DNA of 35,803 bases from assembly GCA_029261155.1 (NCBI GenBank), contig JAJDBW010000012.1:1-35803 (forward strand), written 5' to 3'. A program made the position numbers and the translations under genes. Of this stretch, positions 4,230 through 32,313 are shown in pieces (the stretch's first letter is position 1; the number at the start of each line of letters is the position of its first letter). This stretch comes from Nitrospirota bacterium (GTDB lineage: Bacteria; Nitrospirota; Nitrospiria; SBBL01; JAADHI01). Under the pieces are notes generated by a model that did not search any database, was not told where the DNA came from, and was given only the letters and a program-made list of their open reading frames with translations.

Positions 4230-4820
4230 ATGACCTCCATCGAAAACAAGGCCTACGCTCGCGGCTATCGAAAAATCTGCGGATTAGACGAAGCCGGGCG
4301 TGGGCCTTTGGCGGGCCCTGTGATTGCCGCCGCCGTCATCCTTCCTCTCAATTGCCAAGTGCCAGGCCTCCGCGATTCTAAAAAGCTCACGCCGCGCCAA
4401 CGCGATCGTTTTTTCGATGTTATTACAGAACAGGCCTTGGCCATTGGTGTCGGGCGTGTCGAAAATGACACTATCGACGATATTAATATCCTTCAAGCGA
4501 CATTGCTTGCAATGGACAAAGCCTTGAATGCCCTAAAAACCAAACCGGATTATTTATTGATCGATGCTCTACGCCTTCCCAATGTCAGCATTCCTCAAGA
4601 AGGAATCATTCATGGCGATGATTTGTCGGTCAGTATTGCGGCAGCTTCCGTTATTGCAAAAGTGACACGAGATCGTTTGATGGTAGACTTTAACGAAGCG
4701 TTTCCTGAATATCGCTTTCATCGCCACAAGGGTTATGGTACTCGGGAACACCTCCAAAAAATTCGGGAGTATGGCCCTTGCCGTTTGCACCGAAAAACTT
4801 TTCGCGGCGTCCTCGTTTAA
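4230..4820 (+). CDS. rnhB: Ribonuclease HII
   Basis: RNase HII removes ribonucleotides and RNA from DNA duplexes. The 196-residue protein has the canonical GLDEAGRGPLAGPV segment (about residues 18-31) with catalytic Asp and Glu. A third acidic residue is in LLIDALRLP and a fourth in IAKVTRDRLM. The RFHRHKGYGTREH box typical of the C-terminal part is present. Length is standard. It lies 53 bases after rplS and its 3' end overlaps the start of yraN by 43 bases, a common rnhB-yraN arrangement. Confidence 0.96.
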   Translation: MTSIENKAYARGYRKICGLDEAGRGPLAGPVIAAAVILPLNCQVPGLRDSKKLTPRQRDRFFDVITEQALAIGVGRVENDTIDDINILQATLLAMDKALNALKTKPDYLLIDALRLPNVSIPQEGIIHGDDLSVSIAAASVIAKVTRDRLMVDFNEAFPEYRFHRHKGYGTREHLQKIREYGPCRLHRKTFRGVLV

Positions 4821-5173
4821 ACGGCGCCGAAGGCGAAAAACATGCCGCACTGTTTTTAGTGAAGCGTGGCTATCGTATTCTTGAGCAAAATTATCGGACG
4901 ACTTTCGGAGAGATCGATATTATTGCACACGATGGCGATGTGCTTGTTTTTATCGAAGTGAAAAGCCGCTCCGGAACGCAATTTGGTTTACCGCAATCGG
5001 CTGTCGATACGAGAAAACAAACGAAGATCAGTCAAGTGGCCCTGGCGTATTTAAAAGAAAAGAAGCTAAGCGATGTCGATTGTCGATTTGATGTCGTTGC
5101 TGTTCTGAAGGAAGGCGATGCTTTCGAGGTCGTTTTGTTTCAGAATGCTTTTGAAGGGATCGAACACACATGA
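4778..5173 (+). CDS. yraN: YraN/UPF0102 family endonuclease-like protein
   Basis: The 131-residue protein matches the UPF0102 fold. The N-terminal GAEGEKHAALFLVKRGYRIL helix leads into FGEIDIIAHDGDVLVFIEVKSR, which carries the E-D-ExK signature of restriction-endonuclease-like nucleases. The biological substrate in this family is not settled. The ATG at 4778 lies inside rnhB. The conserved region begins around residue 15, so a later start is possible, but no better codon with a ribosome site is evident before the rnhB stop. It overlaps the next gene by 4 bases. Confidence 0.88.
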   Translation: MPFAPKNFSRRPRLNGAEGEKHAALFLVKRGYRILEQNYRTTFGEIDIIAHDGDVLVFIEVKSRSGTQFGLPQSAVDTRKQTKISQVALAYLKEKKLSDVDCRFDVVAVLKEGDAFEVVLFQNAFEGIEHT

Positions 5174-26244: not shown

Positions 26245-26285
26245 TAGAGATCGAAAAATACTATTCAAAGAGAGGTCTGGCAAAA

Positions 26286-26423
26286 ATGAAGACGGCCAAT
26301 AATATTTTAAAAAAATCGGCCCCACTTTTTTTCATGTTGCTGTGTTTTTCGATGCTGACCGGTTGTAAGCGCTTCACAAGTCCGCACCTCAAACCTTCGC
26401 CAACGGTTGAAAAAAAAGCTTAA
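26286..26423 (+). CDS. Short lipoprotein; probable detached N-terminus of the following cytochrome c
   Basis: A 45-codon frame encodes MKTANNILKKSAPLFF, a hydrophobic core and the lipobox LTGC (Cys27 would be the lipidated residue), then KRFTSPHLKPSPTVEKKA and stop. AGAGAGGT lies about 8-13 bases before the ATG. The frame ends just after an eight-A run (26410-26417). Shifting back one base there (or restoring a ninth A) joins it directly to the open frame of the cytochrome gene, which has no signal peptide of its own. I read it as the export and anchoring signal of that cytochrome, although it could be an independent small lipoprotein. Confidence 0.7.
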   Translation: MKTANNILKKSAPLFFMLLCFSMLTGCKRFTSPHLKPSPTVEKKA

Positions 26424-26488
26424 ACCAAATATCCCTCCCTATTTCTCTCGGAGGTGCCTTTCCGAATCCACTTCCTGTTGAACTTTCC

Positions 26489-27538
26489 ATGAAAGATCTT
26501 GTGGCAGCGGGGAAGATTATCATCTTCGGAACCGATGATCCTCAAGGTGTGCTTTCCAGAGGAAAAGCACCCATAGGAAAAGGGCAGTGTCCGCTTTGCC
26601 ATAAATTTTTTCCTGAGCAAAGGAGTAGGGGACCCATTCTGTTTGCGGGTTCGACCACAGACCAGACTAGGCTTAATAGTGCGCTTATTGATGTGCCCGA
26701 TCCGGCACTCTCTTTTTCAGTCGAAGAACGGTCTCACCTTAGAATTAGAGAGGAACGCTATAAAATAGCCCTGAATAGACATGACATGGGCGAACCGAAT
26801 AGTGGGATAATCCCTCATGCGAAATCAGGGGGCGAGTACTTGATTGAATCTCTATACTGTCCCAATTGTTACGTCGCCTTGGGTTGGGGACTCAAAGGAA
26901 CAGATGACGCAGTGAGCCCCATGCCCAGAATTCACCGTAATCCGACCTCATTGACCGACTTAGAAATCGTAGCAGTTGTGGCGTATTTGCAATCGAAGGA
27001 GACGCCTGGGGATTATTCAAAGGTGACTGTCCTGAAAGATTGGGAAAACTATTTTAGGACAAAGCTGACGATTCCATCCACTCTTAATCTTACAAGCCGG
27101 AATACGAAATCGGAGGGAATAGATCGCATCGGGCAAGCCAAAGACAAGGATGAAGAAAAGATTAAAAAAATGGTCTGTTTTGCCTGCCATAAAATCCCGG
27201 GGATATTCATTGCTAAAACCGGCATGATCGGCCCTTTACTCATTATGAAGACCAACGCAAAAAATAGACTAGAATCGGCGGAGTATCAAAAGGCCGTCAA
27301 GCAAGGAAGGGCGCATGCCACGACCCCAAAAGAATATGTCGTTGAATCGATCCTCGATCCGGGTGCCTTCATTGTCCCTGGTTTTGCGGACGGTATGGTA
27401 AAGGACTACGGCCATAAAATGACGGTGAAGGGTTTGGAGAAGTTGGCTGATTTCCTCTTGAAACAAGGAGAGGATGAAGCCAGGAGGGAAGGCTTAGATC
27501 GTCTTGCAAACGAAAAAGAGGGAAGTCTATACAATTAA
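26489..27538 (+). CDS. Tandem-domain di-haem cytochrome c (probably lipoprotein, start lost to frameshift)
   Basis: The 349-residue product has two cytochrome c domains. Domain 1 contains CPLCH (about residue 31), an internal CPNCY, the possible axial Met in SPMP and a closing helix LEIVAVVAYLQ. Domain 2 contains CFACH (about residue 230), ILDPGAFIVPGF, DYGHKM as probable axial-Met region and LEKLADFLL. Haem attachment requires export, yet the ATG at 26489 has no signal peptide or ribosome site. The frame is open upstream to 26411 with plausible coding sequence, and the lipoprotein leader at 26286-26423 would supply the signal after a one-base shift in an A8 run, giving about 417 residues. 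It would serve periplasmic electron transfer; partner unknown. Confidence 0.85.
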   Translation: MKDLVAAGKIIIFGTDDPQGVLSRGKAPIGKGQCPLCHKFFPEQRSRGPILFAGSTTDQTRLNSALIDVPDPALSFSVEERSHLRIREERYKIALNRHDMGEPNSGIIPHAKSGGEYLIESLYCPNCYVALGWGLKGTDDAVSPMPRIHRNPTSLTDLEIVAVVAYLQSKETPGDYSKVTVLKDWENYFRTKLTIPSTLNLTSRNTKSEGIDRIGQAKDKDEEKIKKMVCFACHKIPGIFIAKTGMIGPLLIMKTNAKNRLESAEYQKAVKQGRAHATTPKEYVVESILDPGAFIVPGFADGMVKDYGHKMTVKGLEKLADFLLKQGEDEARREGLDRLANEKEGSLYN

Positions 27539-28507: not shown

Positions 28508-29320
28508 ATGGATTCGGAATCGACGATGGAATCGTTTTACCTGAAAAAAGAACCTTTTTATCAAGCGGTTGGAGAAGAGGTCGGGCTTTTTAACGCGGCC
28601 TGCGAAGCCAAACGGCCGGTGCTTTTGAAGGGGCCAACAGGCTGCGGAAAGAGCCGCTTTGTGGCCTACATGGCCTATCACCTAAAACGGCCGCTCATCA
28701 CCGTCGCCTGTCATGAAGACTTGACGGCCTCCGATCTTGTCGGGCGTTACTTGCTTAAGGGCGATGAAACCGTCTGGTCCGACGGTCCCTTGGCCCTTGC
28801 CGTAAAACATGGGGCGATTTGCTATCTCGACGAAATCGTCGAGGCGCGCAACGATACCACCGTCGTCATCCATCCGCTCACTGACGACCGGCGGATTCTT
28901 CCCATCGAAAAAAAAAGCGAGGTCATCGAAGCTGCTGATAATTTTATGATCGTGATTTCCTACAATCCGGGTTACCAATCCCTCTTGAAAAACTTAAAGC
29001 AGAGCACGCGCCAACGTTTTGTCGCCTTGGATTTTCAATATCCATCGCGCGTGGATGAAATCGCCATCGTTTCACATGAAGCCGGGGTTTCGCAAGATCT
29101 TGCCGAGCGGCTCGTATCCATTGGTACGAAGGTGCGCAATCTTAAAAACCACGGCCTTGAGGAAGGCGTGAGCACGCGCCTCTTGATTTACGCCGGCCAA
29201 CTGATCTCGAAGGGTGTTTCACCTCAACTCGCTTGCAAAGCGGCCATCGCCGACGCCATGACCGACGACCCGGACATGCGCCAAAGTCTCATTGAAATTA
29301 TCCAGAGCTTCTTCGAATGA
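28508..29320 (+). CDS. NorQ/CbbQ-type MoxR AAA+ ATPase
   Basis: The 270-residue protein is a MoxR-class AAA+ ATPase. Walker A GPTGCGKS is at 42-49, Walker B AICYLDEI at about 103-110, sensor-1 region [12 protein letters not shown], arginine finger region STRQRFV, and a C-terminal helical CbbQ_C-like lid (about 200-270). NorQ, NirQ and CbbQ work with a VWA partner to activate NO reductase or RuBisCO, probably by inserting metal or freeing inhibited sites. The partner gene starts inside its last codons (4-base overlap). Neither norCB nor RuBisCO genes lie nearby, so no specific symbol is given. GGAGG at 28499-28503 supports this start; Met7 is an alternative. Confidence 0.92.
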
Positions 29321-32313
29321 GTTCAGCCGATCCACTCACAACTTTTCAAGCGCTCTTCGGAGAAATGCGCGATGAAGACGAAATCGCAGACCTTGTGGCC
29401 CTTTTCCAAAGTATCGCGACCGAGGCCCAAGGCCCGGCGCTGAACATCGGCCTAATCCTCTCCGACTTTTCAAAAAAGGCCGCCGCCGCATATTTCGAAA
29501 TATTGCCGGAGGTGGTGAAGTCCATCACACCCGACGAGTTGAGCGGCTGGGTCGGCATGGGCATCAAGGTGGCGCAAAAGTCCGCTGCCTCCGGCATCCG
29601 TTTCTTCAAGCAAGGCCCGAAGGTCTTTTCTCGCATCCCTGAACAAAATCTCCGCACGCTTTTTGTTCAAGAAGGCATCCGCTTGGCCGACGGCGACGTG
29701 AATCTCGCTGTTGAATATTATCTTAGCGCCCCGGCCTTGCTTTCCGAAAACCTGCTGGACGAAAACGGCTTTTTAAAATGGATCGCCGAGGGCCGGGCTT
29801 TGGGTGAGGTCGACTACACCCTGGCTGTCGAATATTTTCGGGTGACGCCCACGCTCTTGCCGCATCTCCCTATCGCTACGCTACCGCTTTGGGTCGCCGT
29901 CGGCCGAAAGCTCTCGACGGACAAGCTTTTTCCCACCCTGCTCTTCATTCGGAACAGCCCGGAGATTTTTTCGAAGATTCCGAGCGATGCCACTAAAACG
30001 CAATTGTTGGAACTCACGTCCGAGGTTGCAGAGTCGGTGGCCAGCCTGGCGGAGCAACTTTTTACGGAATCGACTTCCATTCTCCCCCTCTTTCGGTCGC
30101 TGGCTTTGGAAGATGTACTATTACAAAAGGCGACCGAGATCGCGCGTTTCGACGGCGCCTTGGCGAGCACCTTTTTTCTTAGTGGCCCAAAAATCCTCAA
30201 TGCCTTGGGCAAGATTGCAGACCGTTTCCCGGAGTGGGTGGAGCAAGGCATGGCCCTTTTGAAAAGCGGACCGGAAACCGCGAAGGCCTTCTTTTCCCTG
30301 GAAGGCAAGATCGGCCAAATTGCCATCGATCGGCTTCGGGGCGGAGTGTCGCTTTCGACCGTTTCCCGGACGCTTAAACTGTTTGCCGAGGCCCTCAGCG
30401 GCCGCCGCGTGTCGATCAAGCCGACGACGGATTTAAAAGTCGCCTCAGCCGAATCGTCATCGGATGGTTTGTCGGACCTTCCCATGACCGATGGCGAAAC
30501 CATTTACCTTCCGCCGCACATCGGTTATTTTCCCGGCGATGCCCTTAATTTCGAATGGTACAAAGTGGCCACGGCCTATCAGGCGGGTTATCTTGAATTT
30601 GGAACCTTCTATCCCAAGATGGCCGAAACGGCGGACTTGATCGAAGGGCTCCAACAAAAATACGGTCGTCGTGGTGGTTTTTCGAGCTTGAGTTCTTTTT
30701 TCGGACTTTTTCCCGAACCTTTTTTCATCCAGCAATTATTCGAATTGGCCGAGGGCGCACGCGTGGAATACTTCCTTCGCCGTGAATATCCAGGACTGCG
30801 CAAGGCCATGATCCGTATGCGCGAGGCCGACCTGGAGCGGCGTCCGCCGCTCATGGACCTCAGCCCGCGTGGCGTGGTGCTTGAACTTCTGTTTCAAATT
30901 TCTCTCGCAGGAAAATCCAAGGAGCCCATACCGAATACCTTGCAATCCATCGTCTTCGAGGCCTGCCGAATTCTCGGCGCGGTGCAAGATTCGAAGGCGA
31001 GCGTGGCCTTGTCGATGAAAGCGGCCGCGACGGCCTACCAGTTTTTGGAAACGGATGAAGACCGATCCGAGATACCGGATACGCCCATGGAAGCCTTCGA
31101 ATCGGAGGCGGGTGAGCGCGTTAAAGGCAAGGGCGAACAAAGCGGCGAACTCCAGCCTTCGGCGCGAGGTGGAATTGATCCCAAGCGTTTTGAAGAGGCG
31201 CAAAAGCTCAAGCAGACCTATACAGACGATCTCATCGAAAAACTCAAGAATGCGGGGATGGATGTGTCGAATGAGGCCGTTTCTACGGCCATTTCGCAAT
31301 CGGTGGAACGGGGAGAGATCCGGCTCGAAACGGATAAAAAAGACGAACCGAATCCCATGCTCGATCGCCTTGAAGCCCAACTCCGCGCGGAACAAAAAGG
31401 GAGTGCGGGAACTGAGGGGACGCAGGGATTTTTCTACGACGAATGGAACTGCGAGCAAGGCGATTACCAAGCGGCCTGGTCGCAAGTGCTTGAGAAGCGC
31501 TTTTCCAACGAAACCGCTTCAGAGGCCGAATCCATTTTAGAAGAATATCGCGGGATGACACAGTCTATTGTTTCCGCCTTCCAATTGCTCCGACCGGAAG
31601 GTCTAAAGCGGATCAAAGGAGAACGGGAAGGCGATACCTTCGATCTGGATGCCCTCTTGGATTCGCGCGTCGAAATTAAATCGGGCCGCAACCCTTCCGA
31701 TCGGATTTATATCAGTCATCAGAAAAAAGAGCGAAGTGTGGCCGCGGCCTTCCTCGTCGATTTAAGCGGCTCGACCCAACAGCAACTTCCCAATCAAGAC
31801 CGCTCGATTTTGCAAACAGAAAAAGAAGCCCTGCTTTTGCTCGCGAAAGCGGTGGATGCCATCGGTGATACCTTCGCCCTCTATGGTTTTTCCGGAAAGG
31901 GAAAAGACGCGGTCGATTTTTACATTATGAAAGATTTTGACGAGCCCTATAGCGCTGCCATCGATCATCGTATTGCGCGTATTGAAGCCGCCATTCAAAA
32001 CCGTGACGGCGCGGCCATTCGCCATGCGGCCTACAAGCTTTCCGCACAGGCGGCCAAGATCAAAACCCTGGTGCTTATTAGTGACGGCAAGCCATTGGAT
32101 GACGGTTACCACGGTTCCTACGCCACGGCGGATACGAAGATGGCGCTGCGTGAAGCCAAGCGAAAAGGGATTCATCCCTATTGCATTACCGTCGATCGGG
32201 AAGGCGCGGAATATCTCAAAGGGATGTACGGCGATGTGGCCTACATGGTGATCGATCAGGTCAAAAAGCTGCCGATGAAACTCCCGCAGATATACAAGCG
32301 CTTGACGACTTAA
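29317..32313 (+). CDS. NorD/CbbO-type VWA protein with extended helical-repeat N-terminus
   Basis: At 998 residues this is longer than usual NorD (about 600-650) or CbbO (about 780). Residues about 44-336 form roughly eight degenerate units of 34-40 residues of the form W-x3-G-x-x-L...A-x-x-Y/F-F-x3-P-x-x-L (for example [26 protein letters not shown]). A NorD-like middle follows ([46 protein letters not shown]), then a low-complexity Glu/Lys linker. The C-terminal VWA domain has MIDAS DLSGST (Asp815, Ser817, Ser819) and SDGKPLDDG (Asp923). [12 protein letters not shown] precedes it. It overlaps the AAA+ gene, with which it should form one complex. Confidence 0.9.
29446..30324 (+). repeat. Internal ~37-residue helical repeat within the VWA protein
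   Basis: About eight in-tandem protein repeats, residues 44-336, mostly with Gly after the first helix, Ala-x-x-(Tyr/Phe)-Phe in the second and a Pro two to four residues later. Divergence between copies is high at the DNA level, so this is an old repeat rather than a recent tandem expansion. Confidence 0.6.

Follow-up and report, generated by a model that had tools for sequence, protein, structure and literature searches.

Two reading frames at one locus

The window analysed here, 35,803 bases, is an entire contig (C4) of a Nitrospirota genome assembly (G000; 3.56 Mb, 90 contigs), to all appearances a metagenome bin. On its forward strand, a leader ORF of 45 codons at 26286–26423 (MKTANNILKKSAPLFFMLLCFSMLTGCKRF...VEKKA*) encodes a putative lipoprotein-type signal peptide and the start of a linker. 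By inspection, its lipobox, LTGC, is preceded by a hydrophobic stretch. A Shine-Dalgarno-like GAGAGG, read from the sequence, lies at 26270–26275, 10 nt upstream of the leader ATG at 26286. The leader closes with TAA at 26421–26423, right after a run of eight A residues (26410–26417) that includes A_AAA_AAA at 26411–26417, in the X_XXY_YYZ phase of a slippery heptamer in the leader frame. One base off this frame, a second forward-strand frame at 26411–27538 (375 codons and a TAA stop) carries the remainder of the linker and the dihaem cytochrome c domains. A TGA at 26408–26410 closes the cytochrome frame upstream and confines the junction to the A run. The two frames overlap from 26411 to the leader stop, about 10 nt that consist mostly of the run. 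By our own estimate, a frame overlap of this size would land on such an A run by chance in about 0.3% of cases, and the A8 run is therefore very probably the cause of the frame change.

The cytochrome frame contains two haem c motifs, CPLCH (26588–26602) and CFACH (27176–27190), and between them a non-haem CPxC motif, CPNCY (26858–26872), all on the forward strand and all invariant in the alignment of homologues. Its first ATG, at 26489–26491, has no start codon upstream of it in frame, no Shine-Dalgarno-like sequence 5' of it, and no export signal downstream. This ATG is residue 27 of the 375-residue frame and coincides with the start of the first helix in a structure model, so that a product begun there would lack any export signal. 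Read-through across the A run would give a protein of 417 residues with its first CXXCH at residue 102. A preliminary description of this DNA had placed the leader, the A8 run, the cytochrome frame and its first ATG at these coordinates, had put A_AAA_AAA in the correct slippery phase, had seen no ribosome site at 26489, and had expected a read-through product of about 417 residues; the sequence bears out each of these points.

The cytochrome gene stands alone, with a helicase-like ORF upstream, which from reading its sequence we take to be DinG-like, and a convergent TPR gene downstream. Just beyond the cytochrome and TPR genes, at 28508–32313, a CbbQ/NirQ/NorQ-type AAA ATPase adjoins a 998-residue VWA-domain protein, forming a MoxR/VWA chaperone-like pair.

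A single cytochrome gene and its family

Pfam and NCBIfam return only below-threshold cytochrome c matches for this protein. Relatives of the cytochrome were found in 56 of the 58 genomes searched, and a profile scan for further relatives recovered the known family only. We read 29 full-length Nitrospiria homologues individually; each is a single open frame of 380–444 residues with an N-terminal transmembrane anchor or signal peptide. By itself, the leader has no homologue in the order, which includes lineages named Candidatus Troglogloeales and Manganitrophaceae; its best other match has an E value of 0.03, and an independent lipoprotein encoded by the leader was set aside because no match to it was found. 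We looked for homologues that pair a separate small lipoprotein gene with a cytochrome having a start and signal of its own, and found none. Searches by peptide patterns in GTDB and viral collections returned no strain-level relatives.

The nearest relatives to the window gene are a paralogue in the same genome (L031; 58–63% identity depending on method) and a gene of another genome (L002 of G013; 55–58%). Both are intact and have ordinary-looking signal peptides of their own, of which the window's lipobox leader is the counterpart. The paralogue encodes 418 residues with the first CXXCH at residue 95, against 417 residues for the joined frames. A tree groups the window gene with L031 (support 89/85) and L002 (84/65), a modest level of support. 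Judged from sequence, the leader and the cytochrome frame are one gene, because the homologues are single-frame with an anchor or signal, the leader lacks a homologue of its own, and the joined length fits. The central proposal of the preliminary description, a single gene for an exported cytochrome that is broken at the A8 run, stands.

Membership in the family is supported by the presence of both CXXCH motifs and by the retention of 41 of the 43 residues that are invariant in the other 23 retained sequences. The N-terminal anchor or signal is also present in the window gene but, in the assembly, shifted by one base from the haem-domain frame; this is the lesion itself and does not point to a different family. 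A second broken homologue, in G013, was considered and rejected, the TGA reported inside that copy being its natural stop.

Shorter members also occur. Open frames of 204–276 residues carry only the first-haem half (G014:C3:305436-305957, G014:C4:345516-346043, G011:C7:264936-265229 and G005:C164:11207-11824), some of which could be truncated or lie at contig ends. Short C-terminal-half relatives of 160–230 residues are found in other genomes of the class.

The cytochrome frame runs for 375 codons without a stop and retains both haem motifs. Divergence from L031 gives a pN of 0.26 and a pS of 0.72 (near saturation), and the terminal branch of the window gene, 0.54, lies between those of its neighbours (0.49 and 0.63). 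Neither the invariant residues, nor pN/pS, nor branch length gives a sign of relaxed constraint in this frame, and the frame change is therefore very recent, technical, or rescued.

Origin of the frame change

We propose that the locus holds one gene for an exported dihaem c-type cytochrome, probably lipid-anchored as judged from the lipobox seen by inspection, in which a one-base length change sits in the poly-A of the linker that joins the membrane anchor to the first haem domain. That this change is non-programmed we consider very likely. Overall, a real indel, recent or segregating in the population, has about an even chance of being the origin, and a sequencing or assembly error is a credible but less probable one. 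The preliminary description had left the cause open among these possibilities and programmed frameshifting; we infer an indel, real or technical, and regard programmed frameshifting as disfavoured.

Haem c attachment takes place outside the cytoplasm. A ribosome starting at 26286 would reach a stop after 45 residues, and one starting at 26489 would yield an unexported protein unable to receive haem c, and so the allele as assembled is, to judge from its frames, off or nearly off. If the indel is real, low-level rescue by chance slippage is possible, and some full-length product could arise at the A8 run, whose slippery heptamer is in phase.

Poly-A runs of this length are a regular feature of the genome. 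The window contains 20 A8 octamer matches on both strands against 16 expected. Our genome sample (contigs C4, C18 and C58 of G000; 410 kb with 328 ORFs of at least 120 codons) contains 77 A/T8 and 17 A/T9 runs, 73 of them within long, intact ORFs. An A8 is therefore unremarkable here. Relative to synonymous-codon shuffles of the ORFs in these 410 kb, A7 was observed 123 times against 81 and A8 38 times against 30.1. Runs of at least nine were rarer than expected (A, 10 against 19.3; T, 4 against 8.9). In coding regions of a large share of genomes, selection against poly-A is visible at a length of nine (PMC1088944). More generally, A and T runs of 7–8 in ORFs of the sample exceed the synonymous shuffle, and no run reached ten.

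The linker that follows the anchor is often lysine-rich in this cytochrome family, and intact members carry runs there as well: A9 in a paralogue of the same genome (L034), A8 in L015, and A6 in L017, L037 and L038. The linker is a natural indel hotspot. The L034 paralogue (L034:4713-5882, G000:C18) has its A9 at codon 35, just past the anchor, and a further A8 at codon 264, both in frame.

Two scans of the 410 kb (328 ORFs) revealed no further convincing frameshifts. The first, a coding-frame model for frame switches, is weak on short leaders and missed the A8 break; a homopolymer-junction scan, yielding 72 candidates, was added for that reason. Where a candidate had a plausible start close to the upstream stop, it was counted as an ordinary gene overlap, and the possibly coding remainder were read. 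An assembly full of homopolymer errors was rejected as an explanation, the candidates being overlapping genes such as rnhB/yraN (window 4818) and lepA/lepB (C58:168392), a normal radC start, or shadow ORFs. Since no second convincing frameshift appeared in 410 kb, the assembly is not riddled with homopolymer errors; a single such error in it is possible. The rnhB-like and yraN-like genes at window 4230–5173 share sequence in different frames, which the coding model calls a frameshift; both proteins look complete, the yraN-like one probably from a TTG start.

Recoding, in which RNA polymerase or the ribosome would slip on the A8 (A_AAA_AAA) to yield a useful full-length cytochrome, whether programmed or as a chance rescue, is an improbable explanation. 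The heptamer is correctly phased, the cytochrome frame is constrained and its absence of decay would also suit a rescued gene, and some IS elements are inferred to slip productively on eight A residues (PMC1088944). Against this, the split is shared by no homologue, the full-length ones being single open frames, and L015 is a plain open frame even though its linker also contains an A8, identically phased. In-phase A_AAA_AAA occurs 84 times in the ORFs of the 410 kb and is not depleted relative to the other two phases (79 and 66), and ribosomes normally cross two consecutive AAA codons without sliding (PMC4363877). The stimulators that the preliminary description proposed to look for did not materialize: RNA surrounding the run and 3' of it is only about 1 SD more stable than shuffles (z about −1), by which we rejected a downstream stimulatory structure, and the sequence 5' of the run contains no Shine-Dalgarno-like element.

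A broader functional reading would take the A8 as real and let slippage or length variation in the linker set the amount of an exported respiratory cytochrome, or the cells that make it, in a lineage whose cytochromes of the same family often have linker poly-A. We hold this to be quite unlikely. Slightly less plausible still is phase variation, a special form of the real-indel reading with which it overlaps, in which the A tract would act as a contingency locus, with changes in its length turning the exported cytochrome on or off within the population and the assembly having captured the off state. In its favour, the gene is directed to the surface or periplasm and bears the tract at its 5' end, A/T runs of at least eight are enriched early in genes (25 of 73 within the first fifth), and a regulatory role of homopolymer tracts in prokaryotes has been discussed (PMC2831843). 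An A8 is short and common, however, with 73 A/T8–9 runs in intact ORFs, and the nearest relatives of the window gene lack the tract. The idea of two genes, a small independent lipoprotein and a cytochrome separately translated from 26489, follows from mechanical ORF calls and is highly unlikely, given a leader without homologues in the order, an ATG without ribosome site or export signal, and homologues whose anchor or signal is in frame with the haem domains.

The favoured reading, a non-programmed length change, matters mainly for annotation, as a gene caller would list a spurious lipoprotein of 45 residues next to a 349-residue cytochrome that lacks an export signal. Were the A8 confirmed and the full-length protein detected, the locus would be a case, in an uncultured Nitrospirota bacterium, of a respiratory cytochrome whose control lies in slippage or length switching at a poly-A tract; nothing found here requires such control.

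Relation to known systems

In the same genome, a family member (L032, G000:C2) has as neighbours a cytochrome bd-like oxidase subunit and more cytochromes. Dihaem cytochromes c of this type, from bd-like oxidase clusters of Nitrospiria, share 52–55% identity with the window protein and conserve both CXXCH motifs and the CPxC motif. They differ in having a transmembrane anchor and residing in an oxidase gene cluster, whereas the window gene is a solitary, frameshifted one with a lipobox leader. The L032 cluster resembles the terminal-oxidase (TO) clusters of Ca. Manganitrophaceae and, by analogy, may correspond to their TO complexes (PMC9040806).

We found one relative with a solved structure, the dihaem cytochrome c Kustd1711 of Kuenenia stuttgartiensis (PDB 7zs0; PMC11791136), detected by sequence profile with an E value of 5e-17. 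It is the top Foldseek match to the window protein, with a probability of 1.00 but a low TM-score of 0.26–0.34, and is about 21–23% identical in the structural alignment. Kustd1711 lacks the CPxC cysteine pair. In the window protein (26858–26872) and in every aligned homologue, this invariant CPxC[YF] pair occurs without a haem histidine (ESxYCPNCYV); Kustd1711 has DPEKYV at that position. As guesses, the pair might form a disulfide or serve as a cofactor site.

Programmed −1 frameshifting is known on A_AAA_AAx. Genes with transcriptional slippage on A9, such as Thermus dnaX (PMC1088944), are like the window gene in changing frame on poly-A with an in-phase heptamer. The window gene departs from both kinds of slippage gene in that its split is unconserved, no stimulators were found, its run is shorter than nine, and the heptamer is not avoided in the 410-kb sample of the genome. 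In a large GeneTack survey, singleton frame transitions validated by homology are expected to be sequencing errors or indels (PMC3711429). With nothing notable to tell them apart, the window gene resembles the singleton homopolymer frameshifts of that survey, homology-validated frame changes without a conserved site or recoding signals.
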